NCBI GenBank assembly: GCA_001600175.1
Contig: BCJC01000001.1
Span: 310,001 to 374,000, forward strand
Source of the DNA: Erythrobasidium yunnanense
Lineage: Eukaryota > Basidiomycota > Cystobasidiomycetes > Erythrobasidiales > Erythrobasidiaceae
DNA: 64,000 nucleotides
Direction of reading: 5' to 3'
Shown: one piece after another, positions 7,954 to 46,386 of the stretch
Layout of the letters: each line of letters opens with the position of its first letter
Numbering within the stretch: position 1 is the first letter of the stretch
The notes under the pieces: generated by a model
Told to the model about the DNA's origin: nothing
Database searches by the model: none
Seen by the model: only the letters and a program-made list of their open reading frames with translations
Position numbers and translations under genes: made by a program

Positions 7954-8567
7954 CGCGCAGCTTCAAAGCCGCGGCGTCCAGGTTGGTATTTACAAACGGG
8001 CGATCGCCGCTGCTCAATGTACTTGGACTCGACTAGCACAGCCTGGTGTGCGACATAGTGAGTTATGGGTAGTAGTGGAATATTTGAAGGTCTGCGGTCC
8101 GCAAGCTGGGTGTGCACAGGTGTGTACACTCGCACTCGACTGAGTCCAGACCAGCTTACCAGCTGGTAGGCGGAGCCTCCTGCTTGTTGCTTCGCACGCA
8201 CTAGCTTTTGCTGAACATTAGCAGGAGCCCATTGACGACGGATGAATCAGTATCGAACAGAACAACCTAGTTCCTGCCCTCAGGTTGAACTTGGTTTCGA
8301 GAGGGAGGTACAGCATGGGCAGATGGGACGAAGGGAAGGAGGTTAAGACATGCTTCGCATACAACTTCACCACCTGCTGAAGAAGAAGCCAGGATCTGAA
8401 ACCAATCGGACAGGGACAGAAAGATCCCGGACCCATAATTTGCGAGGACAAGCGCGAAAAATAGCGTCGACAGTAGTGGCATAGCGATGCAGGGATCAGA
8501 GAGTATGGGTTGGAATCGCTTCGACTTCTTGCAGTGCGACTATAGGTCAACAGCCAGTTCTTGAAGT
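7954..8567. other. Divergent promoter region
   Basis: About 610 bp between two genes that start away from each other. Open frames here (for example 8218-8589 minus) have no splice partners and read as chance. No tRNA or repeat recognised. Confidence 0.4.
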
Positions 8568-11500
8568 ATGGCATCTGCTGCGACTTCAAGATCCCGGCTT
8601 CCTACTCCGACATCGTCTGGGACTTCTGCCTTCAAAGTGTCGCATGGGCTGGACGAGCCATCACCAGCAGCTGGAGCATCAAGAAGCAACACCCTACCCA
8701 GCATCAGATCTCTGCGTAAAGCTTTCCAGTTCACCGGAAACAACGGTAGCCAGAAGCGTGCAAGCAGCCTGAATGAAGCAGGTCTTAACTACGTTCCGCA
8801 ATCCAAGCTACATGGCAGCAGCAGTAGCAATACATCCAGAGTCAGCTCACTCCCCAAAAGCCAGTCCGTGACAAGTCTACAGTCTTTCACTGGTCATGCT
8901 GGTGGAAGCAGGGTCGCCAATGCTCCAAGCTTTCTTCCAAGACCACCGAGATCCGTACCCACATCAGCGAATGCTTCACCTGCAACTACTGCTTCTCCCT
9001 TCGTCAATAATGGTAGACGAGGCAGCCTTGCGCCAAGCGAAGGCGAACCTTCATCACCCATAGTCTCTGGGCGGCGGAGATCTTCTTCAGCAAGCGTGCG
9101 CGTACCTGTACCGCGTCTTGAAGTCGAGGATTTGCTACAAGAGCAGCCGCCTAAGCTAGATGCGACTGGGCCGAGTCTTCTAGATCTAGCTCACTCAGAA
9201 GAACAACACGGACTGGAGGATGAGCTGCTTGTCGATCCTCAAGCGTTCGTCGCTCATTTGCGAGAGCAGGGTGCTGGAACCCCACCGCCTATACAACCGC
9301 TTCCAGCGTTACCGTCCGAGGCGATTCGAGGTTCGCCAGAGATGCTGGAGAAGGAGAATACGGAGAAGAGTTGGCTGTCGGTCAGAAATTCCGAGAGCGT
9401 AGATGCCGCCCATGCTCAGGCAGCTGCAGCTGTCTTCAGTCTAAAGGCAGAACAGCCTGCCAAGGGCCGGGTCGTCAGCTATGTCTTTCCTTACGACACG
9501 CACATGCTTAGTGTCTCTCAACAAGATGGAAAGTCTTCTCGGGAAGCGATGCACTTGGCCATCGACGTCGCGACTCCCCCGAAACAACGAAGCGCAAGCC
9601 TGCGTTCAGGTCCTTCGCTAGCACCGGAGCCTGTCATTATGGATAGTCCGTCAAAGAGTCCTGCTATTACAGATGCGGAGCGTCATTTCGATTTCATGGT
9701 AGCTGAAACCGCCAGTATCACCGGTACAAGCGAAGAATCACACCCGATTCAGGCCCAGGCAGACCAGCAAAGCAGGCAAGCAAGTCCGTCAAAGCAGACC
9801 AGTATGGACAGAGAACAAGCTACGGCACTCGATAATTTGCGTAGATCGGCCAGTTCACCTCTGAGCGAACTCGTGGCAAGGCTGTCGCAACATGCTAGTC
9901 CAGACAGGCCAGATACGTTCCCGAACGGATCTACACTCGAGTATTCGCCACAAAGAATGCATGCTAGGCAGCTGCGCGAGGAGGAGGATGATAAGAGCAC
10001 GGAAGCGGGTCACGAAGTGATTGCCTGGCATGCCGATCCTCAATCCATATTCGGTAGTCCTACTCAGGCAGAACACAACGAAGCCGATGTCGCTGACTCT
10101 GCTGATGGGTCAAGCGGTATCAGCGAGGCAGCTCCAGGTCAGTGATCACATTCCTGAGCCGGTCGCGAACGCAGTCAGGACAGCAGTTATTGACAACCCT
10201 CATTTTTTAGGTCCTCGAAAGTCTGTTGACCTTACTTCCCTTCTTGCAACCTCACCATCCGAAGCTGGCGTAATAACGGAGGAGCCGGACATTATGACAC
10301 CCTCCACTACGATGCCTGAATATTCTCAGCAGGATAGAGCGGTATCACCCAAACCTAACATCGAGAAAAGGTGGTCGATTCAGGAAGTCGAGGAGGCCTA
10401 TAAGCGAATGAAGGGTCTTTCTGGAATGAGACGGCCTTCCAATACAGGATCGGCTGCAATGTCTGTCTCGACCACCGAGCACAGTACATCTATGGATGCA
10501 TCATATATACGACAGCTACTCGAGGCTGGAGCCGGCGCTTCGATGGATGCTTCGGATAGGAGCATGTAAGCCGTGCTCACCTCTTGCGATGACAAGTGTT
10601 CGGCTGACATATATGGGTCAGACAACATATGGACAGCATGCACGCCGATGAAGCAGGTGATCGCCTGAGCCCTTTGAGCGTTCAGCGTCGAGCTTCACCA
10701 AGCTTTCATGGCCGCATATCGCCCCGCTCTCTGTCTCCTCATACACAGTCTCCGTCTTTAGGTCGAAGCCAGCGTATCAAGGATCAGGTCTCGGCTTCAG
10801 ACAACTCACCTCACTCCTCTATGGATACCTACTCTACGAATGGCCCATCTACTGGGACATCGGCCGCCCTTACGGCTTCTACAAGCGTTCAGTCATCGCG
10901 TGGGAGCGCAAGCAAGGCTACAGAGACAGCAAGCTTGCAACGCCGTCTCTCATGTCGCAACGAGATAGCTACACCGACCGCGTACGAGAACAGATTGGCT
11001 GCACATCGAGGCAGTGAGAGAGCATCGGTTGCGACTTCGGCAGCAGGCAGCGATGAGACAGGCTGGCAGACGCCAAAGACATCGATGCCTGAAGCGATCT
11101 CGCGCCGACATTCGCAATCATCAGCCGGAGCGGGCGATAGGCGAATAAGCTTGCCCAGGCTCTCGGACAGCAATGGTCTCGCAAACGGCCACGGGTACAT
11201 CTCGACACGCAATAGACGTCCTGTCTCGTACAGCAACTCGTCTACTAGCGTTGAATCGCATGGACAGTATAACGTGCGACGGAGCAACTCTGTCCGCAAC
11301 AATGGCACTGGCGCGCTCTCAACACAAAGCAGCAGCTGGTTCAACGACACTCCACGGACTGTTCGAGCACGACCTGGCATTCCCGGCGACTTTCGCGATA
11401 TGCACGCCAGTCAAGCGCATCGCCGGGAAGACTCAAATAACAGCATGGCTACATCGATCACTGCTGCTGACAGCACGACTGCGTGGAGCGATGCGAAAAG

Positions 11501-12281
11501 GGCAGACAAAATCGATCTTTTCCTGCGCTGCACAAAAGCAGAGGGAGCTTTGTCAAGCTTGACGACACAGGCTGCTATAGAGAAGGAAGCTCTACTGGAT
11601 GCGCTTCAGGAGAGTCGACACACTGTGGATGATCTGCGTCAGCAACGAGAAGATCTTGTTGACGAGATAGAATCGATGAGAGTCACCACAGGCAGGCGCG
11701 ACCCTGAAACTGCCAGACAGATCGCCGAAATTGTTGAAGCAAGAGATACATGGCAAGCGAGAGCACAAGCTGCTGAAAGGGAGCTCGAAGCGTTGCGCCA
11801 GAGAAGCAAGGTTGCCGAAGAAGGCAGCCAAGCGAAGATCGACCAGCTCATGAAGCAGGTTGCGACTTTGCAGGAGCAAGTCGCAGCTCAAACAACAAAG
11901 CAAGCACGACCGATTTCGAAGTCAAATACTCCTTCTCTGCCAACTTTGGGGTCACGTTCGCGGTTGCCAGCCTCGGCCTCTTCACCTCGACTCCCCTCTT
12001 CGTCTCCAAAATCGGTGCTACCTTCTCGGGCATCTCCGTCCAACATCCGCACTCGCAATACCTCAGCAGGCAGCTCCACAGGCTTACCTGTGCTAGCAAG
12101 ACATGGTCGAGCTACTTCCACCGCATCCTCTGCTTTCGAGACCGACTTTGGCGACCATCTTCCCGCTGCATTGGATGGCTGGCCTGGTAACGACTCGCAA
12201 GACATATCATTACGATTAGACGAACAGACTGCACAATTTCTGCAGGACATAGAGCCGAATGAAATCGTTCTTCGGCGATGA
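8568..12281 (+). CDS. Large Ser-rich protein with C-terminal coiled coil
   Basis: Three exons (8568-10137, 10211-10565, 10622-12281) encode 1194 aa. The first 900 or so residues are low complexity, rich in Ser, Pro, Thr and Gln, with many R-x-x-S and S-P sites. That is typical of a scaffold regulated by phosphorylation. A short conserved-looking element, RWSIQEVEEAYKRMKGLSGM, lies at about residue 590. From about residue 910 a run of heptads rich in Glu, Gln, Arg and Leu (KIDLFLRCTKAEGAL.. to LQEQVAAQ) forms a coiled coil of about 130 residues. A Ser/Pro-rich segment and an acidic tail follow (QFLQDIEPNEIVLRR). I do not recognise the family. A cytoskeletal or polarity scaffold is possible but unproven. 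Confidence 0.75.
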
Positions 12282-14939: not shown

Positions 14940-17900
14940 ATGAACTACACGTCCGCGCGATACGATGGTCCTTGGAACGCGCAGACCCAGCATCAAGGCA
15001 GTAACATGGCTCGCTCTGGCGCTTTGAACGGCAGCACAAGTAGCGGAAGTGCCGCGAGCATTTCTGCCGTTACAAACCATTCAGCATCAAGCAGTCTGTC
15101 GTCGCTCAATGGCGATACAAGCAGTAGTAGCAGTACCAACATGGCTGGCGTGGGCTCGTCGAAGCACAACTACGATAGCTCTGGCGACTTCGATCGACCG
15201 CGGATGGGCGGCATCCTTCGCAATAATGCACCCCAATCACAAGTGAAGGGCGTAGCAAGTTCGCAGCAGCATCAGTATCAGCAGCCATACTCGCACAGGA
15301 AGGCGCAGAACTCGGACGACTACGAAAGGATAGCATATCCTCAGCATAATAACAGAAATCATCGCGCGATGGGGTCTATTGATGACAAGGACAGCTCTCT
15401 GGATCTACTACTTTCGCCTGGCTTAGCGCCCGTCGGCCCTATCTCACAGTCTTCTAGCAATTATAGCCAACATCCCTTCGCGCCGCCGCCTGCTCAACCG
15501 CCTCCTCCTCTTCCCCATGCTTCCAGTAGCAACCCTGTGCCTCAATACAGCAACCAATCCAACTCAAGTCTTGCCCGCCCTGCGCTGAATAGGAGTCAGA
15601 CTGCCGCCCCGGCAATGTCAGGTCCTTCCTTCGCGAAAGCGTTTCCATCGAAAGGCGCTGCAGGGTATCAGCAGCAGAGTAGTGGAGCTCCACTCTTCAC
15701 GCCAGGCCTGGAGGTGGGCGGTTACAATCTATCGCACCAGCAACAGCCGTCCTCCGAGCGGGCAGCTACTAGCAATCCAGCTGGTGGGCACTCCAATCCT
15801 CCGCCTGCCATTGCTCCTTCAGCTTTGCTAGACTTGGTTCTCAAGATGCGCGTAGACGATACGCCCAACCCACTACCTGCTGCAGCTTCTCCCATGGCTC
15901 GCTCGCATTCAGCCAATGCAGCAGTACGGTTGCAGCAAGCTGTGGTCACACAACAACACGCCAGAAACACGTCAACCGGCTCCAATAGAAGCGAAGACGA
16001 GTCTCAGGCTGGTGACTACAGGCCACAAGGCTTACAGCCGCCTCAGCACCCAGGCATGACACGGACAGCAAGCAGTAAAACAGTAACTGCGCCTTCAGTC
16101 GCCACAGGCTTGGAAACAGTAGACTTGTCACACCAGCGAATAGCGGAAATGCCAGAGGAGGTGATCCAGGTCTTGGAAGGCAGCGTGTCGAGGTAAGCTG
16201 CGCGGTCCTGTATTTACTTCACATGGTGCTGACGGCCTTGTCAGACTCGCACTCAGCTACAACTACTTGCTGACCCTGCCGGACTCGTTCGCAAAGCTGG
16301 GCTCCACACTTCGCTATCTCAACATTCGCCTGAACTTCATCTCTATCTTTCCACAAGCCGTATGTCCTCAGGAGTATTCATGATCTAGATGCCAGACTGA
16401 CCTTACCTGGTTTCACAACAGCTTACCGAAATGCCCTCCTTGGAGATCCTTGACATTAGTCGGAACAAGCTCAAACGCCTGCCAGTCCATCCAGGAAGCT
16501 TAAGAAACCTTCGCGTCTTCTCTATATCCAAGAACAGGATAAAACGCCTCCCGGCGTATATAGCTGACATGACCTTGTTGCGAGTCTTGAAGGTCGACCA
16601 TGTCAGTCGCTCAAATTACGCCGAGTAAGATGATCTGGGCTGAGATTGAACTCGCAGAATCCTTTGGAGTGGCCACCGAAAGAAGTAGTCGCGCAATCAA
16701 GCATCACTACCGCACCTTCACAAATAGGAAGGCGAGACGAATCGGGCTCGCGTCTTGACGAGGCGCAAGCCCTGCAACAATGGCTCAATCAGCTGCAAGC
16801 CTACATCCGAGAACATGCATGTACGGGCTGCCTGTATTGCTCTCAAGTTCCTCAGCTGATAGTTATTTGACTAGCCGAAGCACCCGCTACTCTCCAACCG
16901 CTTCTGCCATCGAGATCAGAAGACGTTCTGTTCGCATCCGTGCAAGGAAGTCAGGGTCGTACAGCAGCTGGGGTCGACAGCATTGCAGAGAAAGACAATG
17001 GCCGTGCAGGACCAACGATCTCGCCCGTGCAGCAGACAAGCATACCTACCGGCGCGAGTACAGTCACACCTCCTATAGAGCCTCTCGTCCCTACCAAGGC
17101 TACGCAAGCTGCCTCTACAACGGACCTGCCGCCCCTAGATATGGATGCAGCAAGAATGTCGCAGCATGGTCGGAACGCTTCCCACTCGCTAGCCTCTGGC
17201 ATAACACAAAAGCGTGCACTAAAATCGAAGAAGTCTCTTCCAGACTTACGGCAAAATCATGCTCAAATCCTAGATGAGCGCTTCAACGACGGTGACAGCT
17301 CCGGTCACGATCAGCAGTACGAGAAGGCAGGTCCCTCACCAAAATTGCGGATACCTACCAAACACAACAAGTCTCCTTCGTCTACATCTTCCGCTACCCC
17401 AAGTCCGGTCACGGCGAAACCTTCTTCAGGCCTTCCGACGCCTCCTCGCTCAGCTAGTAGTGACAAGATTCCTCCTCTTCCTCAGCTTAAGGCCTCAGAT
17501 TTTGCGAAGTCAGCTGCGTTGCGCAAGCAAGAAGAAGAGGAGTTGGACGCTCTGGCACCCCTACGAGATGCGCATCTGGCTCAACAGAAGCGGCATCTGG
17601 AAGGCAAATCGAACAATCAGCTTGCTCCTTCCGGTAGCATAGAGCGCGGAAGCAGTGGCGCCTATTTCAGGAGGCTTTCGATGCTTCCTGCTCTTACGAC
17701 TTCGAAGACCGTTCCTCTTGCTTTACTAGCCTTCATCGATGGTGTTCGTGGCCTTCTCTTCTCTTTATCTCAAATCTACTCTTCCTTGAAGCAATTCGTC
17801 GTCTTTCCTGCTCCGGACAGATTGCCTAGTGCTGTTTCTCGAACAATGGCATCCGCAGACGATGCTATGGGCTTCCTCATCGATGCTCTGGACCGCTTCG

Positions 17901-18403
17901 ATGCGTCAAGTAGGCGGAAAGCACCTGAGATCAGCGTAGTGCGGGAAGTACTGGAGACTTGCCGCGAGAATGTCAATGCGTTTGCAAAACTAGTCAACGT
18001 CATCAGCACAAACACAAAATCTCTGTTCGGACCATCTGCCGATGTGCGATATACAAGAACGCTCATACTAGCTCTGTACGGCGCTATGGGCGAGATCTCT
18101 AATTCCTGGTCGACGTTGGGACCTCTGAAGAACGATGTTATAGCATGGCTGGCTGGCGAAGAACATCCGCTGTCAGCAGCGGGTCCACTCAATATATCAC
18201 CTGGAACACCTCATTCGCCCTATGGCACTGGCATGCCTACCCCGACAAACGTTTCGCCAGTCATGAGCAGAGGTCAGGGCTCGCCTACATTTACAGGGCA
18301 AACTCCCCTTGGCAAGCAGCGAATGCCACCTGCGAACTCGAATGGCAAGGGTAGGAGACATGCAGGATCGTTTACGAATTACAATTCCCGCTTTGAGACA
18401 TAG
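14940..18403 (+). CDS. SOG2: RAM signalling network LRR protein SOG2
   Basis: SOG2 proteins act in the RAM pathway (Cbk1/NDR kinase), which controls polarised growth and cell separation. Five exons (14940-16192, 16245-16359, 16422-16601, 16658-16820, 16875-18403) give 1079 aa. The N-terminal 390 residues are Ser/Gln/Pro-rich. Residues of roughly 395-510 hold leucine-rich repeats (LETVDLSHQRIAEMP, LRYLNIRLNFISIFP, LEILDISRNKLKRLP, LRVFSISKNRIKRLP), with introns falling between repeat units. After a low-complexity linker with KKSLPDLRQNH, the conserved SOG2 region begins near residue 825 (SGAYFRRLSMLP, FIDGVRGLLFSLSQI) and continues as helices to about 1000. The tail is Gly/Ser/Pro-rich. Introns are 52-62 nt. 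Confidence 0.85.
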
Positions 18404-23623: not shown

Positions 23624-24193
23624 TCGCAAGGCAGATATGTCCTATCGTAGTGTACAGAACAGCGTTGTAGGCCTTGCCATCTGAGGAATCATCGAGATCA
23701 AGTCAGATCAGGTCAAGCAGCAGTTTAAAGGCAAGAAAGGCGACGCTTTCAAGCCGGGCAGAGCATCAACGATGGGAACACCTTGAAGGCCTGAAAGTTT
23801 ATTATACATGTTCATGCAATCTCCACAATCATTACTACTTACTCGCTATGAACGCAGCTTCATTTCCTCTCGTCTATCATGCTGACGCTGCATGTACCGG
23901 TCAAGAAAGCTGCTTCCCCGACGTCTATCCCTCGCATGCGTATACTTGCATGTAATAGATGACTTGACTGATAGACTGAGTAGCTTCAGGTCGTGAGTTC
24001 TGCCAGCTGGCCCAGCTGATGAGCGGTCGAGCAGCCAACGTCGAGATCCTGCATGTCGATGTAGTCCGCACAGCATGACTTGATGTACTGTAGTTGTATG
24101 AATACAATTTCATCTAAGTTGAAGCTTCTTGCCTTTGCTTCTACTTCATCTGGCATCGGGTTAGGGTTGTGACAACTGATTTGTCAAGTTCAC
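23624..24193. other. Divergent promoter region
   Basis: 570 bp between the membrane-protein gene (minus) and the exchanger gene (plus). Only short chance frames are visible. No tRNA boxes or repeats recognised. It may hold an extra 5' exon of either gene. Confidence 0.4.
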
Positions 24194-27100
24194 ATGCGAG
24201 AGCAGCGCCTCGAGCAGAGGAAAGCAGCTGCCTTAATCAACCAAGATAGAGGGAAGAAACAGCAAGCAGCAAGCACAAGACCACCTCCCAAGTTACTGTA
24301 TGCACTACCTCTGGTCATCGTCGTATCTGCGACCTTGCTTCTGAGGTCAAGGTCAAGAAACGGAGATCATGTTACAGCAGCATCACCTCTTCTCTCTTCA
24401 CTTCAGAAACGGCACTTCTTAACAGACTCGCATTCGCATGCATCTCACAATGCCACGACTCCCATCACTGCTCCTTCCTACATCCCCTACCACGACATCT
24501 ATGTCCGGCTCCATCCAGTGCTAGGCATCACCGTCCTTCTCATCTGGTTGGTATTCCTCTTCTCCTTCCTAGGAATAGTCGCATCCGACTTCTTCTGCCC
24601 AAACTTATCGACTCTGGCATCTCGCCTGGGTTTACCAGACGACGTAGCAGGCGCAACTCTCGTAGGGTTCGCAAATGGCGCTCCTGACATGTTCAGCACA
24701 TTTGCTTCGTTAAATGCTGGATCAGCCTCATTGGCAATAGGGGAGCTGATAGGCGCAGCGTCATTCATATGCTCAGTCGTAGCGGGATCAATGGTACTCG
24801 TCAAACCATTTAAAGTGGGGAAATACAACTTCTTCAGAGACGTGGGGTTCTTTACGATAGCAGTGGCTTTCTCACTGGCTATTCTGAGGGACGGGCAGAT
24901 CCATGCTATAGAAGCGAAGATCATGGTGGGACTGTATCTAGTATACGTCCTTCTAGTGTCGGTGGGAAGTCTGTATAGGCGCAGGCGGAGGAGACAGAAG
25001 GAGCGAGAGCGATTGATGCGAGATGCGTACAGAAGCGAGGAATTCCACCATGGTGAAGAAGGAGGAGCATACTCAGATAACCCCAATCCAGACGTTCCTG
25101 TGCTACTGGAGAACGGGCATACTCTTCCAAGATCAGGCTCACATCATTCCAACTACCGCACGCTGCCACAACTCGTCATCCCGCCCTCTGAGAACCAGGG
25201 CGACTACTTCACGAGCGGCACCGCGCATTCAACGGCTCCCACCTCCCCAGGTCTCTCACCTCTCGCTACCCCAGCATCAGGGCTCTCCGAAAGTGGCCAT
25301 CGTAGGCGCTCTTCCACCATTACTCAAGCACATACCCCTGGCGGCACTCGCAAGCGTCCACACGGTCATTCCCGCTCCGTCTCCCACAATTACCAAGTCC
25401 ATACTCCTTCACGAATGCTACATCGTTCTTCTATACTTGGGGCCATAGAATTCAGAGATGTCGTTAATTCCCTACAGGCTGAATCGACAGCAACGAGGAA
25501 CTTGGGCGCTTTTGCATTTCCTTCACAAGTAGCTGGAGAAGAGGATGCACCTGTATTGAGGAATTACCCGCATTTAGGAAGGCCGAAGAGCGTCACTGGC
25601 GCACTTTCTGCACCCTCTGCTCGGCGGACTAAGTCGAAGAAGGGAAGCGGAGATTCATATAACAGTAGGCAGTCATCGAGGAGCATAGGGCGGGTAGATG
25701 GACTCACTGCTTCCACGTCGATTCCGCAATCGCAATCGCAATCGCAATCGCAAGCTGGCAGGCCAAGAGCCGTCTCTTCACCACCCGATCGACGAGCTAT
25801 GCTCTCTTCTTCTTCTTCAACAAGTAATAATGCAGGAGAACCAAACATGGACGACCCATGGGCGAATGCATCTTCGTCCGACAACAGACCAGACTTTACG
25901 CCTTCTATAAACGTCGAAGAAGCCAGTGAAGCGTTTCCAGATTGGACTTCTTCTTCGCATGCGGGGTGGTCTGTTCCGAATAATAGTAGTGGGAGGAATG
26001 GACAGCGCGAAAGTAGCACTGAAAGCGAGCAGGAAGATGCGAACTCTTCGGATATTACAGCGAGACCGTTCCCTACGCAGAGGGATTCAGAGGAGAATGC
26101 TCGACAAAGTGCGAATACGAAGACAAGTACTGCAATGGCGCAATTCCCTTCGAAAGCTCTTAAAGTACTGGGTTTCGGATCGAGTTCTCAGAACAACGAT
26201 AGCACCGTCCCGCCGAAAGCACAGCGTCTCTTAGGCTTGCAAAATGAGCCTAGTCCCTCCTCAACAACAGCTGGCAACTACAAATACTCTTGGAAATACG
26301 CCTACGCCATGCTCTGCGCCGTTATTTACGCAGTCTTCCCTACCCTCCACAATTTCCGCAAAAAATCGGTCCTGAACATGATCACTTCCATAATCACTAT
26401 TCCTGCTATCCTGCTACTCAATATCACCCTACCGGTCGTTGATGAATCCGGTGCAGAAGAGGAGTTCTTGGAGGAATTAGAGAAGGAGAGACTTGCTTCA
26501 GAAGTAGGCGATGGTGACAGAGAAGGTGAGGATGGTGATAATGACAACGAGACGGAAGAAGAGGCGATCAACCGATATGTAGAGGAAGAGATGGATGAAG
26601 AGGATCGTGAAGAACGGGAAGACATGATCAAGCGGTCTATACTTATTGCACAAGAATTACGGTCGCCAGTCGCTACGCATCAACAGCATCATGGTCATAC
26701 ACACTCTCATCACTTCTCATCCTTCATGGCGCCGGATCCATCGAATGATACGCTCGTACCGCCTACACCTACTTTTCCAGCCTACGCAAGATCAGCAACG
26801 CCTGATAGTCTTGTGCTCGACAACTTCGAGCCTCCCGCTGCTACTTCTGCTGCGAATATTCCATCACTTCCGTCGCTTGAAGATGGTCAGACACTCAAGC
26901 TTGGAAACGAGTATATCGTCGAAGCGGAAGACCTCACGACATGCTTGACTGCTATACAATGTCTTCTTGCACCCATCTTTGCAGTCTTGGCAGTGCTAGG
27001 CGAGTTTTAAAGATACAGACTGCCCAAATTTGATTCGCTGATTGCTGTGAATGCAGGCTACAATCTCAAAGTATGGTATCTCCCAGCAGCTACAGGTGTA

Positions 27101-31411: not shown

Positions 31412-33895
31412 ATGTCTGGCCTCACTGCAAGAGGACAGCTCAAGGCCATCGCGCCGGTCCCTACAGCGACAGACGTACGTGCAAGGATCCAGCGCTATCC
31501 GGCAAATTCGCAGGATTTTACCTGGATCACACGGATCTGGTTTGCAAGCAAGCATGAAGCTGACTTTCTACACTCTCCTATGATGCATACAGTTCCTCGA
31601 TATCGCCCTGTCGAAAACCCAGAGGAAAACGCCCACCCAGATTCACAAGGGCTTCAAAATTAGCAGAATCAGAAGCTTGTGAGCAGCGATAGCTGTTGCT
31701 TACTGCGGGCAAGAATGCTAATTAGGATGTGCTCAGCTACATGCGCAAGGTCAAGTTCACTCAAGAAGCTTTTGACGAACGACTGTCGCAAATCCTGTCC
31801 GAATTCCCTATTCTCGATGTGAGCGGCGCGAGCATTGCAGACTCCTATTAGGAGCATGCTGAACATATCGTTACCATCTGTCCAGAATCTACACCCCTTC
31901 CTGGCCTCCCTGCTTAACGTTCTCTACGACAAGAACCACTACAAGCTTGCGCTTGGCCAGATCAATACCTGCAAGCACCTGATAGACAACGTCGGAAAAG
32001 ACTATGTCCGTCTCCTCAAGTTTGGCGACAGTTTGTATCGATGCAAGCAGCTCAAGAGGGCCGCACTCGGACGAATGGCCACCATCATGCGCAGACAGAA
32101 GGATCCCTTGGCCTATCTCGAGCAAGTCAGGCAACACATGTCTCGTCTGCCAGCTATCGATCCCACCACCCGTACACTCCTCATCTGCGGTTACCCCAAT
32201 GTCGGCAAATCCTCATTTATCAATAAAGTCACTCGCGCAGACGTGGATGTACAGCCTTATGCATTCACTACAAAAAGTCTGTTCGTTGGACATATGGACT
32301 ACAAGTACCTCCGCTGGCAGGTAGTCGATACGCCCGGTATCCTCGATCACCCGCTTGAAGACATGAACACTATCGAGATGCAGTCCATCACTGCACTAGC
32401 ACATCTGCGAAGCTGTATCATGTACTTTATGGATCTGTCCGAACAATGCGGCTTCACCCTCGAAGCGCAGATCAAGCTCTTCAACTCTATAAAACCTCTG
32501 TTCGCAAACAAGCCCGTCTTTGTAGTCATCAACAAGATCGATGTCACTCGCCCTGAAGATCTCGATGAAGCTCGCAAACAGATGCTCGACGCATTCAGGG
32601 CCGATTGTGGAGAGAACATCAACTTCGTCCAGCTTTCCACTCTTTCAGAAGAAGGTGTCATGGATGTCAAGTCCGCAGCTTGCGAAGCTCTCTTAGCTCA
32701 TCGCGTAGAGAGCAAGGAGAAGACGAAGCGAGTAGATAATGTAGCGAACAGAATCAGAGTCGCTCTCCCTCAGCAGAGAGACCAGGTCACTCGAGAAGCT
32801 TTCATTCCTGAAGTAGTCAAGCAGAGACAGGCTGTGGCTGAGGCGAAGAAGGCTAAGATGCAGACTGCGGAAGACGATGAGGAGGAAGAAGAGGAAGAGC
32901 TGCCTAAGCGCAGACTCGAGAGAGATATCGAAGCTGAGGCTGGAGGTGCTGGAGTACACTCCGTCGATCTCAAGAGTGAGTGTCTCGCTATAATGCTTGT
33001 TGATGCTTCGGTCATACTAAATGTATGTCATCTATGTGTTTCAGAACACTACCTGCTCAAGAACGACGACTGGAAGTACGATGTCATTCCTGAGATCCGC
33101 GAAGGCAAGAACTTTGCCGACTTCATCGACCCTGATATCCTTGAGCGACTGGACGAGCTCGAAGCCGAGGAGGAGAAGCTTGAAAAGGAAGGGTTCTACG
33201 ACTCTGACGACTTTGACGACGAAGAGATCGCAGAGTCTGATGAGGAAGCTATTCGCGAGACTGCGAAAGCCATCCGTGCGCGTCGAACAGAGATCAAGAC
33301 AAACAACAAGATCAGGGACAAGAAACAGAACAGAGCGGCCATTCCTAGACCGCAGCTCAATACGAGGACAATGGATGCCATGGCGCAAGATCTTCGTAAG
33401 GCAGGTATTGACCCAAGCAAGCTGGAAGAGAGAGCAAAGATGCTGGCTCTCGCCCGTGGTGTGCAGCTCAAGTCGAAGACCGCAGGCGAGAAGAGGAAAC
33501 GTACTGTAGATGGCGAGGATGGCGAGGATATGGATGTGGAGGAGGGCGAGAGCAGTATGGCTGGCGCTTCTGCGTCCATGTGGGCCGACGCCTCCGATGA
33601 CGATGGCGATGGAAGCATGGAGATCGACGGCGCATCAAGTAACAAGAAGCGACGAAGTCTTTCTGGAAAAGCAGTCGCTGCAAACAACGGCAAGCGCGTT
33701 CCAACGAAGAATCGTGCAACCCTTGGTATGCGAGACGAGACGCAGCGCAAGAAGGCTACGCAACTGCACCGTCTCGCACAGAGACATCCAAACAGAATGG
33801 CCAAAGCAGGAGAAGCAGATCGACACGTCCCGACCAAGATGCCAAAACATCTCTTCGCTGGAAAGCGTGGTATCGGCAAGACCTCGCACCGATAA
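31412..33895 (+). CDS. NOG1: Nucleolar GTP-binding protein 1 (60S biogenesis)
   Basis: OBG/Nog-family GTPase that binds pre-60S particles in the nucleolus. Five exons (31412-31474, 31593-31678, 31737-31818, 31886-32975, 33045-33895) give 723 aa. The spliced N-terminus reads through [15 protein letters not shown] and then [16 protein letters not shown], typical of Nog1. The G domain has [20 protein letters not shown] (about 179), the [12 protein letters not shown] switch region, NKID and STLSEEGVM. The C-terminal part contains [19 protein letters not shown], long acidic and basic stretches, and ends with [15 protein letters not shown].., [18 protein letters not shown], the family's conserved end. 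The last intron (69 nt, 32976-33044) is stop-free and a multiple of three. Removing it restores the usual spacing before [12 protein letters not shown]. Confidence 0.95.
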
Positions 33896-34213: not shown

Positions 34214-35936
34214 ATGTCACTGTTCAAGCTATTGTGCGGCCAAGCGGATGACAGCGATGGTTCAGCTGGCAGGGCGCCACCTCGACAGCGCAGACGGAAA
34301 CACAGTAGCGGTAGCGGAGTTAGGCAACGTCGTCACAGTCGATCCATACCAATAGATGAAGTCGAACTGCGTGGCCGGCTAGTGCAAGCAGACGGTCGAT
34401 ATACGGTCCATCCCTTCCCACCGCACTCAGATTACGCCAACCCGAAGAAGTCGGCAGCTGTTGGACGGGCCTTGTCAATCATAGATGGCCGCCCTATCTC
34501 CTGGAAGCGCGAGCGCGAAGATCGAACTACTCGGGTGGGACATACTTTGGCGTTTTTCGTCGATATTAGCAGGAGGGATGGCGTCAAGGTCACTCGTTAT
34601 ACGAGCCTGACCTTCTCGGAGTGCGTTCCGCTCCCTCCTGACTCCTGTTGCCATGCTAATGTCTTCCACGCCTGCCAGCCCCGACAGGTATCCGGCCCAT
34701 CGATCCAAACCGCCGAGTGCCAGTAAAGAGCGGCCAAAGAGACGCAGAACTGTACCTTCAGCTTCTACTGCAAGTGCCTCTGCACGATCAGTCTCATCAT
34801 CCCGCAGTAGTAGCTCTGGCACCACCTCTACCGCCTCGACAAGCCAACAATCACCTACGGTGTCGAGCGGAAGTACCAAGCCATCCGACGCTACATTTAC
34901 AACATCTTCAACCGAGATGCCACCTCCTGATGCTCTGCTGCGTGCCTGGCGTAGGGGTCATGTCACGACGCTTGCAGGGCATGTGCTTACTCTCCCAATT
35001 CCAAGAAGAGCTCCAGGCACCATCCGGGTTACGAATATCGTCACCGCAAGCACCGAAGCCAAAGCGAAGTTGAAGAAAGCGTGCCCCTTTGACATTTCGT
35101 TTCCGTCCAACCAGAGCCATATTGAAACAGGTGATCGGGTCTGTTTTGAGCTAGAAAAGGCTGGGAAGAGCCGGACACATTTGCAGGCAAAGAATGTTAG
35201 AAATTCTGATAAAAGGTAAGCTTAGCCGATGCACACTCAAGTAACGCACCGGCGGTGATTGGCTAATGCTGATGTGCGACACAGTGACCAGGCTGGACGA
35301 GAGTGCGGAGTACAACTCGTCGGCAAGGTACTTCGACGACCTACTGTCGTACAGAACGACCTGCAAGAGACAGGCTTGCAGACTGGAGTAGTCGTCGTGA
35401 AAGATGTCGAAACTATCGAAGACCATATTAAAAACAGATGCAAGGGATCGCAAGAACACATCGACTTGAACCCGATCGCGCAGGAGGAATACAAAGACCG
35501 TCAATATGGCTGGCTGTTTGAGGACAGCAAAGAACCCAACGGTCTCGATGATGCCCAAATCGGCGACCTCCTGGCCTTCAAGATTATTCAGGGCGATTAC
35601 GTGGGCGACATCGAGTTAGTCATGGTTTCAAGGTGATTTATCAGGGTTCAAGCTTTGGATCTCAGGCTGACGTGCTCGCACAGGCCTTACGTCGAACCAG
35701 CGCCAAATCCGCCTGGCGTATATCGTGCCAGGGCGGCCTCTGTATCGAGCTCAGAAGCATCTGGAGGCCGTACAGTCACATCTGAGACGACTACGACTAC
35801 AACACAAACGACGAGTACCGCGACGACCGTCAGTCCGCCGCCGCCCACCAGGCAGCCTTCAAGACGCAATTCGCACATATCAAGAAGGAACTCTATGAGG
35901 GGCAGATCTAGGCGTGGCTCCCATAAACTATCTTAG
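34214..35936 (+). CDS. Array gene A: three cold-shock/OB-like repeats (unknown)
   Basis: Four exons (34214-34620, 34679-35215, 35285-35632, 35684-35936) give 514 aa. Not a family I recognise. The N-terminus is basic (PPRQRRRKHSSGSGVRQRR). Three units of about 90-120 residues follow, each with the pattern G-x-hydrophobic-x-x-L, a central G-x-I-x-V strand, a hydrophobic F-x-x-S/N-x turn, then G-D-x-V-x-F and a final A-x-N-V-like strand. Unit 1: GRLVQADGRYTV.. VGHTLAFFVDI. Unit 2: GHVTTLAGHVLTL.. GTIRV.. GDRVCFELEKAGKS.. AKNVR. Unit 3: GKVLRRPTVV.. TGVVVVKDV.. IGDLLAFKIIQGD. This resembles the five-strand plan of cold-shock domains, especially the divergent ones of UNR/CSDE1, but that is inference. 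A Ser-rich linker follows unit 1, and a Thr-rich then Arg/Ser-rich tail ends the protein (NSMRGRSRRGSHKLS). Confidence 0.72.
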
Positions 35937-36090
35937 TACTGCCAATACGTGAGACTCGCGGACGTATAAATCATTTCACATTGCATGCTTGAGGTGCGCA
36001 AGTCGTCGTATCACAGCGAGCTTGCAGTAAGTACTGAGCGATAATTTTGTGCGTAGGCTCGCATTATTTCAACTTGCAAAAGTACCAACC

Positions 36091-38843
36091 ATGCAACGAA
36101 AGACAAAGGGAAGGAAGGCGAAGCCTCGTGTCCTACCTCAGCGTGTAAGACGGCTAGCTGCTCCAGCTAGGTCTATCTCTCCTCAACCACTCACGCGAAG
36201 GCACTAGGACTAGATGCAAGGCTTTGGTCTTCTCCGAAAGAAAAGTAGACACATTGATCCGGTTGCTCTGATTGGGCAGATTATCAAGTTGGACGGCATC
36301 CACTACACCCTTCGCGCATATCCATCGAATGACGCGCGTTATCCTGACGACGAATGCAAGTCTGTCGCCAGCTTTCTGCGCAGACTTGGTTCTCGATCTA
36401 TACAAGGGACGCTTCCGACTGGAAGGCATGACTATCGGGAAGGCGACATTGTCAGTTTTTGGTGCCGATTGGGAGAACGCGGAGGTGTCGCATATGATCT
36501 GGTGAACCTCTCGAGTACAGATCCTAAGCGATTTCCCCGTGTGCGATCCTCAGGGAGCCTGACAAGCATCTCCACGGAAAGCTTCAGGTCGACATCATCA
36601 GACACCTCAACCGAATTTCCTCCCTCCATGTCAGCTGCGGTGGCAGTAGCTGTATGTGGCGGTACAAAGCTCACTTTCGAGGGCAAAGTCCGAAGTCTGC
36701 CATTTCAGACCAAGCTAGGCATAATCTCTGTGGAAGGGGTAAAAGTCGCTGCAAGAGACCAACATATCATCGACAGCGTCAGCTGCCTGGTCGGCAGCAC
36801 AATTCCTTTCAGACTCGAAGAGAATGAGTACACAGTGCGAGTTGGCCAGACCGTCACTTTCCACTACGGCTCTTTCCCTAGCAGCTATGGTCCCCGCGGC
36901 AGGACATTCCGAGCTATCAACATGGGGCCATCTGCTCTTTCACAACGGTAAATGCCTGATTTTGTTCGTTGTTTGAGTGAGGCTAATGGGCCCTCCCTAG
37001 CAGAAATCACGGTACAGGTCCCGCCTCACCTCGCCCACGAAGTCGGAAGGCTTCATTCTCCCGCCGATGTCCCGACAAGGAGTTCACACAGAGTCCTTTC
37101 GCCTACTACGTTGGTGAAGTCCAGAGGCCGCCTCGTTATCATGGAGCCGGCATAATCAACGTTAAAACCGCGGAATGGCTTGCCAACCACCTGGAGAAGA
37201 ATAAGGGTGTCCTCTGCCAGGCAATAGACATTCACAGACCCACACAATTGCGACTGCTTAAAGACTTCCCTGGTGGCCTGACCTTCGACAAAGCGGATAT
37301 CGAGTCTCTAAACGAGCACATACCCCCGAAGGTGGGTGAAGGGGACGTAGTCCTCTTCCAGATGGATGATGAAGCGCGCCCTCGAGCACATCGCGTGATT
37401 GACGTTACGGCACGAGCTTACATACATCACGAAAGGTCACGGCGATGATGTTATGATCGTACTGTCATCATTGTTTTTGTTGCAAATCTGGATCTTCCAG
37501 GTGCTCGGCTTGCAGGAAAGCGTCTTCACTCCAGCATCCTGCTCTCTTTGTAGGGCGTGTACGCCTAAAGCAGCGCCTCTCCGCAGCAGAGACTGCAGCG
37601 AGACGAATGTTAAAGCAGCTTCTAGACTCATGCAACCACCATCCTGGCGGCGGGCTGCCTCACTCTCCGGCAGCGACTCCTCCGAAAGTCGAGACCTCTT
37701 AGGCATAAAGGTCCACAAACGGGGCCGCAACCTCCGTGTGCCGGATGGCTACCTCTATGGCAGACTAAAGTCTCTCGACACTCAAGGATGGGGAACCATA
37801 GAACCCTTCTCCAGTTCCTCTCCCTACGTTCCCGCTCATTTCGCGAAAGAAGTCGATGCAATCCTGCATTACGCTATCGGAGCTCGGATCATCGTATGGG
37901 CATGTCCTCCGCGACAGAGTCGATGGCACAGAGTGGGTGATATTCTCCACTTCAAGGCTTCGTGGATCCTTCCAGAAGATATCATTCAAGCGAGCACCGC
38001 TCTAAACTTGACACTGCAGAAGTAAGCTCCTCATTTAAATACAAATACGACAGACTAGATTCTAAGGCGTTTTCTTTAGTCCTTCGGGATACCCCAATCC
38101 CGCTCGGCGGACCTTGCGACCAAACAATCGGCCTATCAGACTGGGTGCAGTGGTCTTACAGATACCTTCTCAAGATCCACCTATGTCGGGGACTCTGATT
38201 GTGAAGTCGGCGAGCTCGCTGCAGGAACGCCTTTTTAAATCCGCCAGCTTTCTCGCTTCCGATGCTCAAGCGAAACTACAAGATGAGTACGAGGGACGGT
38301 GCATATCTTGGCCTCTTCACGATGCTATCATCGGAACGCTGGACGGCGACATCGTAACATGTACGATCCCAGCTATGCCTGGACCTATGGCTTCAGCCAG
38401 CAATGTGGTCAATATCAGTTTGGAAGCACGGCAGTAAGCTACTGGTATATGAGGATAATCCCTCCTTCGCTTATAGCTGAATCTACTATCCTAGGTCCCC
38501 TGTTGGGCAAGCAAAACAACAGTCACTTCGATCAGGTCTCAGGGAAGAGCAAGAAGACGTTTCAGCTGTTCGACATGACAATGTAGCCCGAAAACCAGCT
38601 GTCTATACGCGTCAGAAGCCCTCGGAACCATCGATTTTGGGCACCAGTTTCGGCCACCCTCAGCGGTCAGCGAGTCCCATGCTACGCTCAAGCAGCCATC
38701 GTAATGCTCGGTATCCCTCAGAATCGGTCGCAGGAAAAGATTATCGTGTCAGGCGAGTTTCGCCAGTAAAGCGTTGCTATCTAAAGAGCGAATACCGCAC
38801 TGATGGCGGGGTGCAGGTCAGACACTATAAAAGATGTGATTAG
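36091..38843 (+). CDS. Array gene B: five cold-shock/OB-like repeats (unknown)
   Basis: Six exons (36091-36144, 36214-36947, 37001-37435, 37554-38021, 38080-38433, 38495-38843) give 797 aa. Exon 1 encodes a basic start (MQRKTKGRKAKPRVLPQR). The alternative is to start at the ATG opening exon 2. Five units with the same pattern as gene A are visible: IGQIIKLDGIHYTL.. REGDIVSFWCRLG; EGKVRSLPFQTKLGIISVEG.. VGQTVTFHYGS.. RAINMG; VGEVQRPPRYHGAGIINV.. GEGDVVLFQMDDE; YGRLKSLDTQGWGTIEPF.. RVGDILHF; LGAVVLQIPSQ.. SGTLIVKSAS.. DGDIVTCTIPAM.. SNVVNIS. The 118-nt intron between exons 3 and 4 is the weakest joint; a polypyrimidine-rich tgctctctttgtag acceptor keeps the frame. The C-terminal 115 residues are disordered and Arg/Ser-rich. 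Gene A ends 154 bp upstream. Confidence 0.65.
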
Positions 38844-39015
38844 ACGCTGAACCTGGAGGAGCTTTGGTATTGCCAGGTTCTGCTTTGTTCGACGCCGAGG
38901 ATGGCGGTGTTTGCTGTAAAGGTTGTTAGACCTGAAAAGTCTGCCTAGAACTAAAGTCTTCTCCAGGATCCAAGCTCTGTCTCAACTCCAACTCGAGGCA
39001 CATCACAAATACACC

Positions 39016-40613
39016 ATGCCAGGCTCTGCTCGCAGCAGTAGCTCCAAGCGAAGTTCCAGCAAGCGAATACGAGGGCCGTCATCGGTGAAGACCGACACAT
39101 CAAACAGGAGCAGAGTACATAAGCGTATGAGAGATGTGGATCTCAGCAGAAAAGTACTAGGCTATATTGCAGATCTTCCGTCGAAGTGGGGAGACGGCGA
39201 CATCGTGGTGCGGAGTATGGAAGACTTCCGACCTAAACAGTTCAAAGACCTCGCTCTTATTCAGGCAAGCCTAGGTAGATCAGGGAAGTGGCCGTCACAA
39301 AACGATCAGAGTAAAGCGGTATCCAACGAATTTGCAAATATCGTTGACAAGGAACGGGGTTATCAGGCACTTGGATTGAGATGGAAGCGCTCGGAAAGCA
39401 AGAAGGCAGAAGAGATTGAGCTCGTGGACAGTTCACAGGTAGATGATCTGGTCTTGCTGGACATCCAGGTCAGGCACGGTGTGGGCTACGCTGTCAACAT
39501 CGAGAACCTGTCAGCACAACTGTGAGCCATCTGCTACCTCATGAGACCCGATGCTGAGCCTGATTTGCTCGTAGCCGGCTGCAAGGAATTCACCGGAATA
39601 TGCAGGACTGGGAGCAGCAAGGGGCGGATCATCTTCAAGATAGACGAGCTGAGTTAAAGGCGGAACTTAGACGCGCCGATACTGTTCTTGGCATGTCATG
39701 GCACGATTTCCGCGATCCCTTGAAGCGCGACAACGACTATCGGAATGGTCGCAGGCGTTGTGAGGAGATTCAAGAGAGGGAGCAGAATCGTGCAGAAGCC
39801 AGAAAGACCAGGATTAAGAAAGCGCTGGACGACCTTGGACCGGAGACTCAAGCCAATCGACAGGCACCCTCAACCCGTCGAGATGAGGGTCATATATACG
39901 ACTATCAGGAAAGGGGTCGGCCTCGTAGGCGAGAGGACCGCGCCGCGTTTTCTGAGTATGCGCGATCTGCCTATCAGGATCCTAGCAGAACACCCTCCTT
40001 CGGTGGCCGAGATTTCGGCACTAGGCCTCCACACTCTGCCTTCAGCCCAGGAGTTCCGCCAAACATGTCCAGATGCAGAAGTATGACACCACTCGGTGCC
40101 AGAGGCTTCTCTCGTATGCCTTCATACGCCGACTGGCACGCCAGCACGCCGTATTACGAGCCAAAGTTCGAAGACGAGACCTACTTCAGCCAGCCAAACA
40201 GTCGGGCACCTAGCATGTCCCGCAGTCGTTCTCGATCTGTATCTATGCGAGGGGACGACTTTATGCGTTCGTGGGACCGGCCCAAATCGAGGAGGAGACG
40301 GCCATCGATCTGGAGTACCGATAGCTTCCCGCCGCCACGTCCATACAGGCCTCGACGGTCATTTAGTATGCCTCGACGACCATCGTTCGATGGAGGACCT
40401 CCACCTCTTTCCAGGATGCCCTCACGAAGCATGAGTCGGGGAGGAGGAGGCTACAGGAGGTACGTCAACGATACAGGAAGTGTGATCAGCGAGAACTCAT
40501 ACACAGACGACGAAGGATGGAAGGTGAAGAGCTTTAGCAGAAGGAAAAGTTTCAATGGTGGTGCTGGAAACAGATCATCAATGTCGTTCTCGACTGGAAT
40601 ATCGTTCCATTAG
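39016..40613 (+). CDS. Array gene C: one cold-shock/OB-like unit plus Arg/Ser-rich tail (unknown)
   Basis: Two exons (39016-39521 and 39575-40613) give 514 aa. The basic N-terminus (SSSSKRSSSKRIRG) matches the style of genes A and B. One unit follows: LGYIADLPSKWGDGDIVVRS.. DDLVLLDIQVRHGVGYAVNIENL. A charged helical region with R-A-E-L-K-A-E-L-R-R comes next. The C-terminal 250 residues are Arg/Ser/Pro/Tyr-rich with many RS, RP and SM pairs (APSMSRSRSRSVSMRG), resembling SR-protein or RNA-granule tails, and end in SFSTGISFH. The cold-shock-like reading is the weakest of the three genes because the middle is stretched by an insert of about 70 residues. It begins 172 bp after gene B on the same strand and converges on NSP1. 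Confidence 0.68.
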
Positions 40614-40753: not shown

Positions 40754-43118
40754 CTATCGTCTTGCCCCTAGTCCGAAAACACCACTTCTCGCGAGCCCAC
40801 TCTGGCCGAGTCTGCTAGGCGTTCCCGCTCTTCCGGGCGTAGAAGCTCCAAATGCATTCCTCGCAGGCGATGCCATACTGCTCCCGAAGCCATTCGGCGT
40901 GCCTCTCGCTGCAGAAGACGGTGTGTTCGTCCTCTGAGGGCCCATCTGCGATCTCGTAGGTGTGCCGTACGATCTCCCCACCGAAGAGGAAGAGGTCAGA
41001 GCTCCTGCATTATTGTTTCCTGCTCTAGAGCTGCTGAGGCCTTGCCACTTATCTCCACTAGCAGTCTTCAAGCGCCCTTCTAGTTCCTCTACTTGTTGAG
41101 CAAGTGTGTCTCCCGTCTTTTCTATCCACGACAGGCTCGATAGATGTGCGTTCAGAATCGCAGCTATTGCCGATACTGGATCTTGTGAGCTTGCATCTTT
41201 GTCCGCAGAAGGCTGCGTGATGCCTGCTGATGCGGATAACGAGTTGACGTCATTAATCAATGCCGTTAAAGAGCGCGAGAGGTCATCTAGCTGATTATTG
41301 AGATCTTCAGCTAGACGATATGTCTTTTCTCGCTCTGAACTCGCTCCTCCTGATGTAGACATGCCGCTTCCCGCATGTCGTCCCGCTAGTAGTTCATCAA
41401 TCTGCGCCTCGTACTGATCCATGTACCCTGCAAGCGCTTGTTGTTCCTGTTCCACATAGTCCAGCGAGCCATTTATGGTATTTGAAATTGGATCGAGGGC
41501 TTGTAGCTCATCGAGCAGTTTCCGGATATCTTCTCCGTTCGAGAGGAGGATCGAATCCCATTCTTTCACTTCTTGTGCGAGATTCGTGAATTCGCGAACG
41601 CGGTCGTCGAGGTCTGTAGACCAGCGATTCACTATATCTTCAAGCGTCATTCCTTTCAAGAGAGAAGGCACGGGTACGGGGATCTTCGCTTGAGAAGTCT
41701 GTGCGAGAGCTCCCGCTGTAGATGTGGATGCGGGAGCACCGAAAGCGGGTGCAGTAGAGGTAGAGGCGGGAGTTGAGGTGGAAGCTTGTGCAGCAGGCGC
41801 CCCGAAAGAGAATTTGGCGGGCGCAGCTGCAGCAGCTGGAGTTGTCGTAGCTGGAGCAGGCGTAGAAGTAGTTGTAGCGGCTGCTGGCTTGCCGAAGCTG
41901 AAACCGCCTGTCGCAGGGGCGGCAGTCGCAGCGGGTGTCGATGTACCTGTGGATAATCATCAGTTCTTGCACTGGGTCTTCTCGCGGAGGCTCGCTCACC
42001 CGATGCAGGCGCAGGCGTGTTAGTCCCGCTTGCGGCAGGCTTCTCAGCAGGCTTGTTACCGAACGAAAAGCCTGTACTCGCGGGTGCAGGTGCAGGTGCA
42101 GGTGTGGCCGTACCTGACGCCGGAGTGCTTGTACCATTTGCAGCAGGTGTTGCAGCTGGTTTCGCACCAAAGCTCGCGAATGGATTAGCAGGCGCAGACG
42201 TCGACGCAGCTGGGGCTGGCGTAGTTGACGCCGCCTGACTATTGTCTGTAGTCGCTGGAGCAGCGGGCTTTGCGCCAAAGCCGCCGAATGAGAACCCTCC
42301 AGAAGCTGGTGCGGCTGGAGGTGCGGTAGAAGAGGTAGAAGACGCTGCATTTCCAGTCGCAGGAGGAGTGAAAGAAGGAGTTGAAGTGGCAGACGCAGGA
42401 GCTGTAGCTGTCGTGGCAGCTGGTTTCCCGAATGAAAAGGTTGGAGCTGGAGGTTTAGCAGCTGGTGTTGTGCTACTACTCGTTGCTCCGAATGAGCCGA
42501 ATGGGTTTGGTTTATCGCTGCTCCCTGATGACGCTGGAGCGGCTGCTTGAGTAGTTGTGCTGGCGGCATTACCGAATGAGAAGCCTCCACTTGCAGGCGC
42601 CGTAGAAGCAGCGGGCGCAGCGCCGAATGCAGCAGTACCACTACCAGTAGTAGCAGGCTTCTGTCCAAAGCCACCAAAGCTCGCAGGAGCCGGAGAAGCA
42701 GCGGGCGTGGTTGATCCAGCTGCAGCCGTGTTTCCGAAGCTGAAGGTGGGTTTCGGGGCAGGCGTGCTTGTACCAGCGTTGGCGTTATTGTTAGTTCCAA
42801 ACGAGAAGCCTCCAGAGGGTGCAGCGTTGCTACTGCTTGAAGACGATGCAGCCTTTCCAAACGAGAAGCCGCCGCTGGCAGGAGGAGCTGAAGTGACCCT
42901 GATTCAGCTGGCTATTCCGCGTCAACATAGTGGTACTAGATATACCTGGATTGGTAGTGTTGTTCGCTGCTGCTCCAAAGCCTGCAAATCCTCCAGTACT
43001 GCCAGTCCCAGCTGCTGGCTTTCCAAAGCTGAACCCAGATGTGCTTCCAAAGGGTGAGGCTGTAAGGCTGTTGTTAGACGGGATTATAAGACTTTGTTGT
43101 AACACTTCGCTTACCCAT
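40754..43118 (-). CDS. NSP1: Nucleoporin NSP1 (Nup62 family)
   Basis: Central-channel FG nucleoporin; its coiled coil builds the Nsp1-Nup57-Nup49 and Nsp1-Nup82 complexes. Four coding exons (43118-43115, 43059-42946, 42887-42000, 41946-40754) give 732 aa. Exon 1 is only ATG plus one base. The N-terminal 425 residues are Ala/Pro/Thr/Ser-rich with spaced GFSFG, FSFGK, GFGAKP and PFGSFG repeats. From about residue 430 the Nsp1_C helix region begins (LLKGMTLEDIVNRWSTDLDD), with heptads through YVEQEQQALAGYMDQYEAQI and DTLAQQVEELEGRL. An unusual Ser/Gly/Ala-rich tail of about 80 residues with a few FG-like pairs (RNAFGAS, VFGLGARR) follows the coiled coil. Confidence 0.9.
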
Positions 43119-44949: not shown

Positions 44950-46386
44950 CTATCTGTCACGCCGCGGCGAGCGTTCTCTGGACCTGCTCCTGCGTCTTTT
45001 CCTATCCGCATCTCTATCCCTATCTCTATCTCGACCATTCTCCCTGCCATGCTCTCTCGGCCGATCAGGTTTCCTACTACTATCATCTCTACCATCCCCT
45101 CCCCGCTTCTTCTGCCGATCTTTGAACTCATATTCATCGAGATTAAAGACCATATCTCCACTCCGCCCATTCTTCCGGGGTGAACGATGGGATGAAGAAG
45201 GTGGTGGAGAGCGTGAGTCGGTGTTGTAGGGAGTTCCTTTGTTCGGAGGAGGTTTCCCGCCTGTCCGTTGGTATATCCAGTCATTATGTAGTTTGGACAC
45301 GCCTGATCGATGGAATTCGTCAGTATTCGCCAAAGTCAATTTGAGAAGGAAAGACCTACTCTGCGAGAAGTCGACGTGTATCCTCCTATCATCAATGAGG
45401 ACATTGTCCATCTTGACATATGCTCTTTCCGCCTCCTCTTTTTGATCAAACTCAATGAATGCATAATTGAGTGAATCGCCCGTTTTCTTATCCCTTATGA
45501 CTTCACACGACATGATCGTTCCGAATCTTGAGAAGATCAACTCCAGATCTTCCGATCTCGTGACTGCATTCAGCTTGCATACGAACAGGACATTCTCGGG
45601 CGGAGCTACGTCTGCAAAAGGTAGATCGCCAACCATCTCTAGTGTTAAAGCTTGTGCGCGCGCTTCTCGTTCCCTTCGTATCCGAGCGAGTTCTGCTTGA
45701 TCTGCATTCTCGGCATCTGGCAGTTCTTCGTCTTCTGCGACTGCTAAGCTCTTCAATTGCGCAGCGGTAGGAGGTGGGGATTCAGGCGGCACGATCAAGC
45801 CAGGCGGATCATCGAATGGATCATCAAGGATGACTACATGTCTTATCCTGACATCTCTCAGTGGTTTTCCAGAATCATCCACCAGGACTTGCGTATTGAA
45901 TTTCCTCAATGTTTCTAGAGATTCTTCTTCTACGCATTTTCCGAAGGGCGCATGTTTCCCATCTAGATAACTTGCGTTTTCAGTCAGAGTGATGAAGAAG
46001 ATGCTTCCGCAGCCTGCGTCGTCTCCGCTGCCTCCGACGGCCATAGACAGTGTTCCTAAGGATGTATGCTTCATGTTCTGGTGTCGCTCAGGCTTGAATA
46101 ACCGAGGACGGCTGTTGTCGATGTGGTACCAGATGGATGAACCACCCTCGCCAGTGTCGGTAGGATCACCAGATTGAACGATAAAGTCCTTTTGAACATT
46201 AAAGAAGGCACAGTAGTTGTAGTAGTACGCCTTGCAGAGCTTCAGGAAGTTCTCGCAAAGTCGAGGACACCGCTCGACTGGTCATCCATAGAGGAGTTAG
46301 CTTTGAAGAAGCATCTACGTCGAGTTTCGCTCACCTTCTAGGTCGAGAATGATGTCGCCTATGCTCGTCTCCAGAAGAACAGACAT
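44950..46386 (-). CDS. Cyclophilin-RRM protein, PPIL4/Cyp6 type
   Basis: Peptidyl-prolyl isomerase with an RNA-recognition motif, in the family linked to nuclear RNA processing. Three exons (46386-46335, 46277-45360, 45302-44950) give 440 aa. The start [17 protein letters not shown] is diagnostic of the PPIL4 group (cyclophilin domain right at the N-terminus, residues 1-165: [36 protein letters not shown]). The RRM at about 235-315 has NVLFVCKL and NYAFIEF. The junction [13 protein letters not shown] is typical. The tail is Arg/Asp/Glu/Ser-rich ([18 protein letters not shown]). The second intron (45303-45359, 57 nt) is a multiple of three and stop-free, so retention would insert 19 residues after the RRM. 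Confidence 0.92.

Follow-up and report, generated by a model that had tools for sequence, protein, structure and literature searches.

The 64,000-nucleotide window analysed here is a stretch of the Erythrobasidium yunnanense genome (contig BCJC01000001.1, positions 310,001 to 374,000), which totals 20.9 Mb in 10 contigs. Between NOG1 (31823–33895, + strand) and an NSP1-type nucleoporin gene (C-terminal part 40754–41956, − strand), the window contains an array of genes built from nine repeat units, which we sorted into types A, B and C. We lean, if only slightly, towards reading it as four (possibly three) paralogous fungal genes in tandem that encode strings of small five-stranded OB-type barrels and would act as UNR-like RNA-protein scaffolds. 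An earlier interpretation made from the DNA letters alone (hereafter referred to as the sequence-only reading) had described three same-strand genes with basic N-termini and Arg/Ser-rich tails. The start ATG at 34214, the stop codon ending at 40613, the common + strand, these terminal features and the sizes of the first and last proteins (514 amino acids each once spliced) were all borne out.

Gene 1 (34214–35938; exons 34214–34620, 34679–35215, 35285–35632 and 35684–35938) encodes a 514-residue protein with units in the order A-B-C and an Arg/Ser-rich tail; its three introns are all of the GT-AG class and each has a branch-point-like site. Gene 2 (36091–37448; proposed exons 36091–36144, 36214–36947 and 37004–37448, with predicted start and stop) would encode 410 residues, again with units A-B-C. 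Its first exon (36091–36144) is short and basic and is followed by an intron at 36145–36213. Proposed gene 3 (37630–38843; exons 37630–38021, 38080–38433 and 38495–38843) would encode 364 residues comprising units A-C and a basic tail, and both its introns have good donors (GTAAGC) and no branch-point match. The last gene, the third of the sequence-only reading (39016–40613; exons 39016–39521 and 39575–40613), encodes 514 residues with a single unit, a charged stretch that looks helical and a long tail rich in Arg and Ser. Ser-rich linkers are present in genes 1 and 2.

The nine units, 89–129 residues long, lie in open frames at the places given by the sequence-only reading, as three, five and one, and the labels used here follow that count; introns fall mostly at unit borders. 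Those in gene 1 are g1u1 (34352–34618, type A), g1u2 (34947–35213, type B) and g1u3 (35298–35630, type C). The copy that had been singled out as the clearest, GTIRV..GDRVCFELEKAGKS..AKNVR, is g1u2. Five further units follow on the same strand: g2u1 (36247–36525, type A), g2u2 (36658–36936, type B), g2u3 (37092–37424, type C), g2u4 (37735–38019, type A) and g2u5 (38126–38428, nearest to type C by pairwise score); the feature in the last gene spans 39136–39519 (+). The order of units along the DNA is A-B-C, A-B-C, A-C and C-like. The partition into three types is not unique: of 280 partitions, 3 reach at least the score of the tested one, which is itself among them. In that partition g2u5 was grouped with B and g3u1 with C, but by pairwise score g2u5 is closer to C. 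The type-A trio stayed together in each of the top four partitions. A two-strand pattern, an 'h-x-G-x-h' strand followed 35–115 residues later by a 'G-D-x-V-x-F'-like strand, occurs seven times in the three proteins, whereas 2000 composition-preserving shuffles averaged 0.017 occurrences and never exceeded 3. This contrast is optimistic because the patterns were written after the units had been seen.

Two of the nine units, one of type A, one of type B and none of type C, were modelled with AlphaFold2: g1u2 (from 34965–35207) and g2u4 (from 37741–38019; mean predicted local distance difference test score 85). Both are predicted to form the five-stranded OB barrel with strand order 1-2-3-4-5, in agreement with the OB/beta-barrel fold that the sequence-only reading had expected. 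The solved structures nearest to both models are cold-shock, UNR, S1 and other OB domains. A helix, not mentioned in the earlier description, follows strand 2 and precedes strand 3 in both models.

We compared the units with cold-shock domains (CSDs) by profile searches. All four matches of the nine-unit profile at E≤10 among 177,635 Protein Data Bank (PDB) sequences were CSDs (3a0j, the best at E 0.023; UNR 6y96 and 6y6m; 1g6p), and they covered strands 4–5 only. The corresponding signature, G-D-x-V-x-F ... A-x-N-V, is found in most units, and the E-values are weak. With a realigned nine-unit profile, CSDs made up three of six matches, the top two among them, and with a B+C profile one of five (UNR); the type A and type B profiles alone matched no CSD in the PDB. 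In hhalign comparisons with six CSDs, the nine-unit profile scored 20.1, above all 60 of its column-shuffled controls (at most 14.7); types B, A and C scored 28.3, 14.8 and 15.7, respectively, each without shuffled controls of its own.

Membership in the canonical CSD family was rejected, because none of the three spliced proteins matched the Pfam CSD model (PF00313) in listings down to E 10 and because relaxed patterns for RNP1 (G-F-G-F) and RNP2 (V-F-V-H) were found in none of the nine units. The same Pfam model does score over its cut-off on the genome's own canonical CSD. The cold-shock/OB proposal of the sequence-only reading is thus partly supported: both models favour the OB fold and the units seem to resemble non-canonical UNR domains, but CSD family membership is not supported. 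In view of the profile matches to CSDs in the PDB and of the missing RNP motifs and Pfam CSD match, we call the units putative OB barrels of the CSD/S1 type that come closest to UNR's non-canonical CSDs.

Several isolated matches were taken as chance: the sub-threshold Pfam matches of gene 1 (zf-CCCH_Mcm10, E 0.079; MoeA_C, E 0.28) and of a fused middle protein (TYW2_N_2, E 0.005; BRCC36_C, E 0.13), and the single PDB matches of gene 1 (mL77, E 6.8) and of residues 1–674 of the fused protein (a MaoC-like dehydratase, E 0.033). The last gene gave no sub-threshold Pfam match. Elsewhere in the genome, searched exon by exon, the only Pfam-CSD match over the cut-off lies at G000:C3:938776-938925 (L001), where the canonical CSD looks intron-split and lies within a Ser-rich protein.

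The array can be divided into three genes or four. Four is in our judgement somewhat the likelier count, because unit 4 is of type A, like the opening units of the first two genes, and because an in-frame ATG at 37630 yields even gaps of 152, 181 and 172 bp, near the spacing of 150–170 bp that had been claimed. The three-gene division, which places units 4 and 5 in the same roughly 790-residue protein as units 1–3, is a serious competitor, though the less probable of the two. Such a fused protein, of 789 residues or similar, needs one of nine possible introns that would keep the middle frame open, all within 37395–37598 (+) and with donors at 37395, 37404 or 37436. The donor at 37395, GTGATT, is identical over its six bases to that of intron 3 in gene 1, and acceptors at 37500 or 37515 are available to it, but using this good donor would cost unit 3 its last strand. 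At 37404 and 37436 the donors read GTTACG and GTCACG, respectively, whereas the seven other introns all start with GTA or GTG, and all nine fusing introns measure 85–163 bp, as against 51–69 bp for those seven.

These arguments are not decisive: the ATG at 37630 lacks a purine at −3, the disputed stretch has a coding score intermediate between coding and non-coding sequence, and the missing branch-point match of the 37436 intron is shared by the accepted introns at 38022 and 38434, so that branch-point sites do not discriminate. Nor does coding potential decide, since the codon log-odds of most array segments fall between the in-frame and off-frame means. Two genes in the middle are the simpler division and the slightly more probable one. 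An open frame upstream of proposed gene 3 (37453–37629, +) can start MIVLSSLFLLQIWIFQVLGL, where a signal-like segment precedes a Cys-rich one; this frame is probably untranslated, or alternatively could be a longer N-terminus of proposed gene 3. A fusion across 38844–39015, for which open joins exist via introns of 94–250 bp, or of at least 488 bp from the 38434 donor, was not preferred.

As to function, the units differ in predicted charge. Three are basic (g1u1, g1u2 and g2u2; isoelectric point, pI, 9.6–10.4), two are near-neutral (g2u1, pI 7.0; g2u4, pI 8.1), and the type C units and g3u1 are acidic (pI 4.7–6.5, g1u3 having pI 4.7). The gene 1 protein contains five R[RK]xS sites where 1.1 would be expected; no such excess is clear in the other two proteins. 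In the scheme we propose, an ancestral A-B-C gene would have spread by local duplication, and its products may act like UNR, as multi-barrel RNA-protein scaffolds. The neutral-to-basic A and B barrels (pI 7.0–10.4), together with the tails, would contact single-stranded RNA, whereas the more acidic C barrels (pI 4.7–6.5) would be pseudo-RNA-binding domains that space the others or dock proteins. Phosphorylation of R-R-x-S sites in the tails may adjust binding.

RNA binding by the array proteins is what we infer here; the barrels could instead be OB folds for protein–protein contacts only, as scaffolds or adaptors that bind no nucleic acid directly, with basic tails for localisation. The absence of RNP1/RNP2 motifs from all nine units, the four units at pI 4.7–6.5 and the report that non-canonical CSDs of UNR show no RNA binding by themselves (PMC7383231) would agree with this alternative. 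We nevertheless regard it as unlikely, in view of the three strongly basic units, the Arg/Ser-rich tails and the structural neighbours, which are mostly chains from RNA-binding proteins or complexes, even if sharing a fold is no proof of function.

The sequence-only reading had also treated the units as copies of one repeat. The three type-A units are clearly related by sequence (leave-one-out profiles, E 2.4e-5 to 4.2e-4), but the tests across types fail. It is nonetheless rather improbable, in our estimate, that true repeats are confined to the three A units and that the rest share a generic beta-barrel grammar, even though profiles built from the other eight units recovered none of the nine left-out units and hhalign aligned A with B+C at a probability of only 11% (E 0.0028). 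No further units were accepted among 914 open reading frames in the rest of the 64-kb window (best E 0.085) or among 3058 in 200 kb of flanks (best E 0.62).

Among known systems, UNR/CSDE1 shares with the predicted array proteins several small OB barrels strung together and barrels without RNA-contact motifs; it also accounts for the PDB profile matches 6y96 and 6y6m and for the structural neighbours 4qqb, 6y6e, 7zhh and 1wfq. UNR alternates canonical and non-canonical CSDs, whereas none of the nine array units is canonical. It has an extended loop between strands 1 and 2, whereas both array models have their helix between strands 2 and 3, and the array differs further in its basic Arg/Ser tails, tandem genes and fungal origin. 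Hollmann et al. describe the non-canonical CSDs of UNR as domains without RNA-contact motifs that fail to bind RNA in isolation, that determine the geometry of the CSDs next to them, and that can act as scaffolds setting specificity for RNA structure (PMC7383231). According to the same article, they usually, not exclusively, sit between canonical CSDs, as the array units do not, and a profile of such domains found 1,038 proteins, 25 of them with no other domain (PMC7383231); on that account, motif-less barrels are in themselves nothing new outside UNR.

Bacterial cold-shock proteins and Y-box/Lin28 CSDs (PF00313) differ from the array units, which lack RNP1/RNP2 and any Pfam match and have 89–129 residues versus about 66–70 in the bacterial proteins. 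The OB domains of S1 and exosome Rrp4-Rrp40, IF1/eIF1A and uS17 are structural neighbours of similar rank, but the array proteins have no Pfam match to any of them. Ssd1 and Dis3L2-type pseudonucleases resemble the array proteins as fungal RNA-binding proteins holding cold-shock domains; they are built round an RNase II fold and are set apart by domain content, the array proteins having no RNase II domain in Pfam. No fungal UNR-like or all-barrel family appeared in the literature searched at the level of titles and abstract openings, which did include papers on fungal CSD proteins (Ssd1 and Dis3-type pseudonucleases; Glaciozyma antarctica). The excerpted text of one review names a single fungal CSD gene, that from G. 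antarctica (PMC7825780).

Searches for protein homologs of the array found none among the matches listed, in collections whose fungal coverage is poor, as indicated by an LAA2 control that matched only two Sporobolomyces proteins (43% and 40% identity); neither orphan status nor conservation of the array can therefore be claimed. Little can be read from the search with the gene 1 protein, which low-complexity words probably swamped. In the source genome itself, seven exon or unit queries returned self-matches only, apart from one match at E 0.136, and these searches cannot exclude paralogs, because they missed sister units too. One query, the large gene 2 exon (36214–36945), found no relatives in viral and prokaryote contigs.

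The families around the array include SOG2 and LAA2-like proteins, the former represented in the window by a SOG2-type RAM signalling protein (16871–18400, +). These are fungal families, and together with the short introns and the two Sporobolomyces relatives of LAA2 they fit a fungal, probably basidiomycete, genome. The window also holds a 945-residue open frame with a sodium/calcium exchanger domain (24173–27007, +), a cyclophilin with an RRM domain (44953–46281, −) and two long open frames of 526 and 557 residues (8565–10142 and 10608–12278, +) without a Pfam match at E 0.001.

Tentatively, the array may represent a fungal family made wholly of non-canonical, helix-inserted OB/CSD-like barrels, arranged as A-B-C modules and multiplied by tandem duplication. 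It would amount to a 'UNR made only of pseudo-RNA-binding domains', in which the geometry would be set by the barrels and the RNA contacted largely by basic, phosphorylatable tails. Paralogs made only of motif-less barrels would let one ask what such barrels do without canonical neighbours and how repeat proteins diverge past sequence recognition yet keep their fold.
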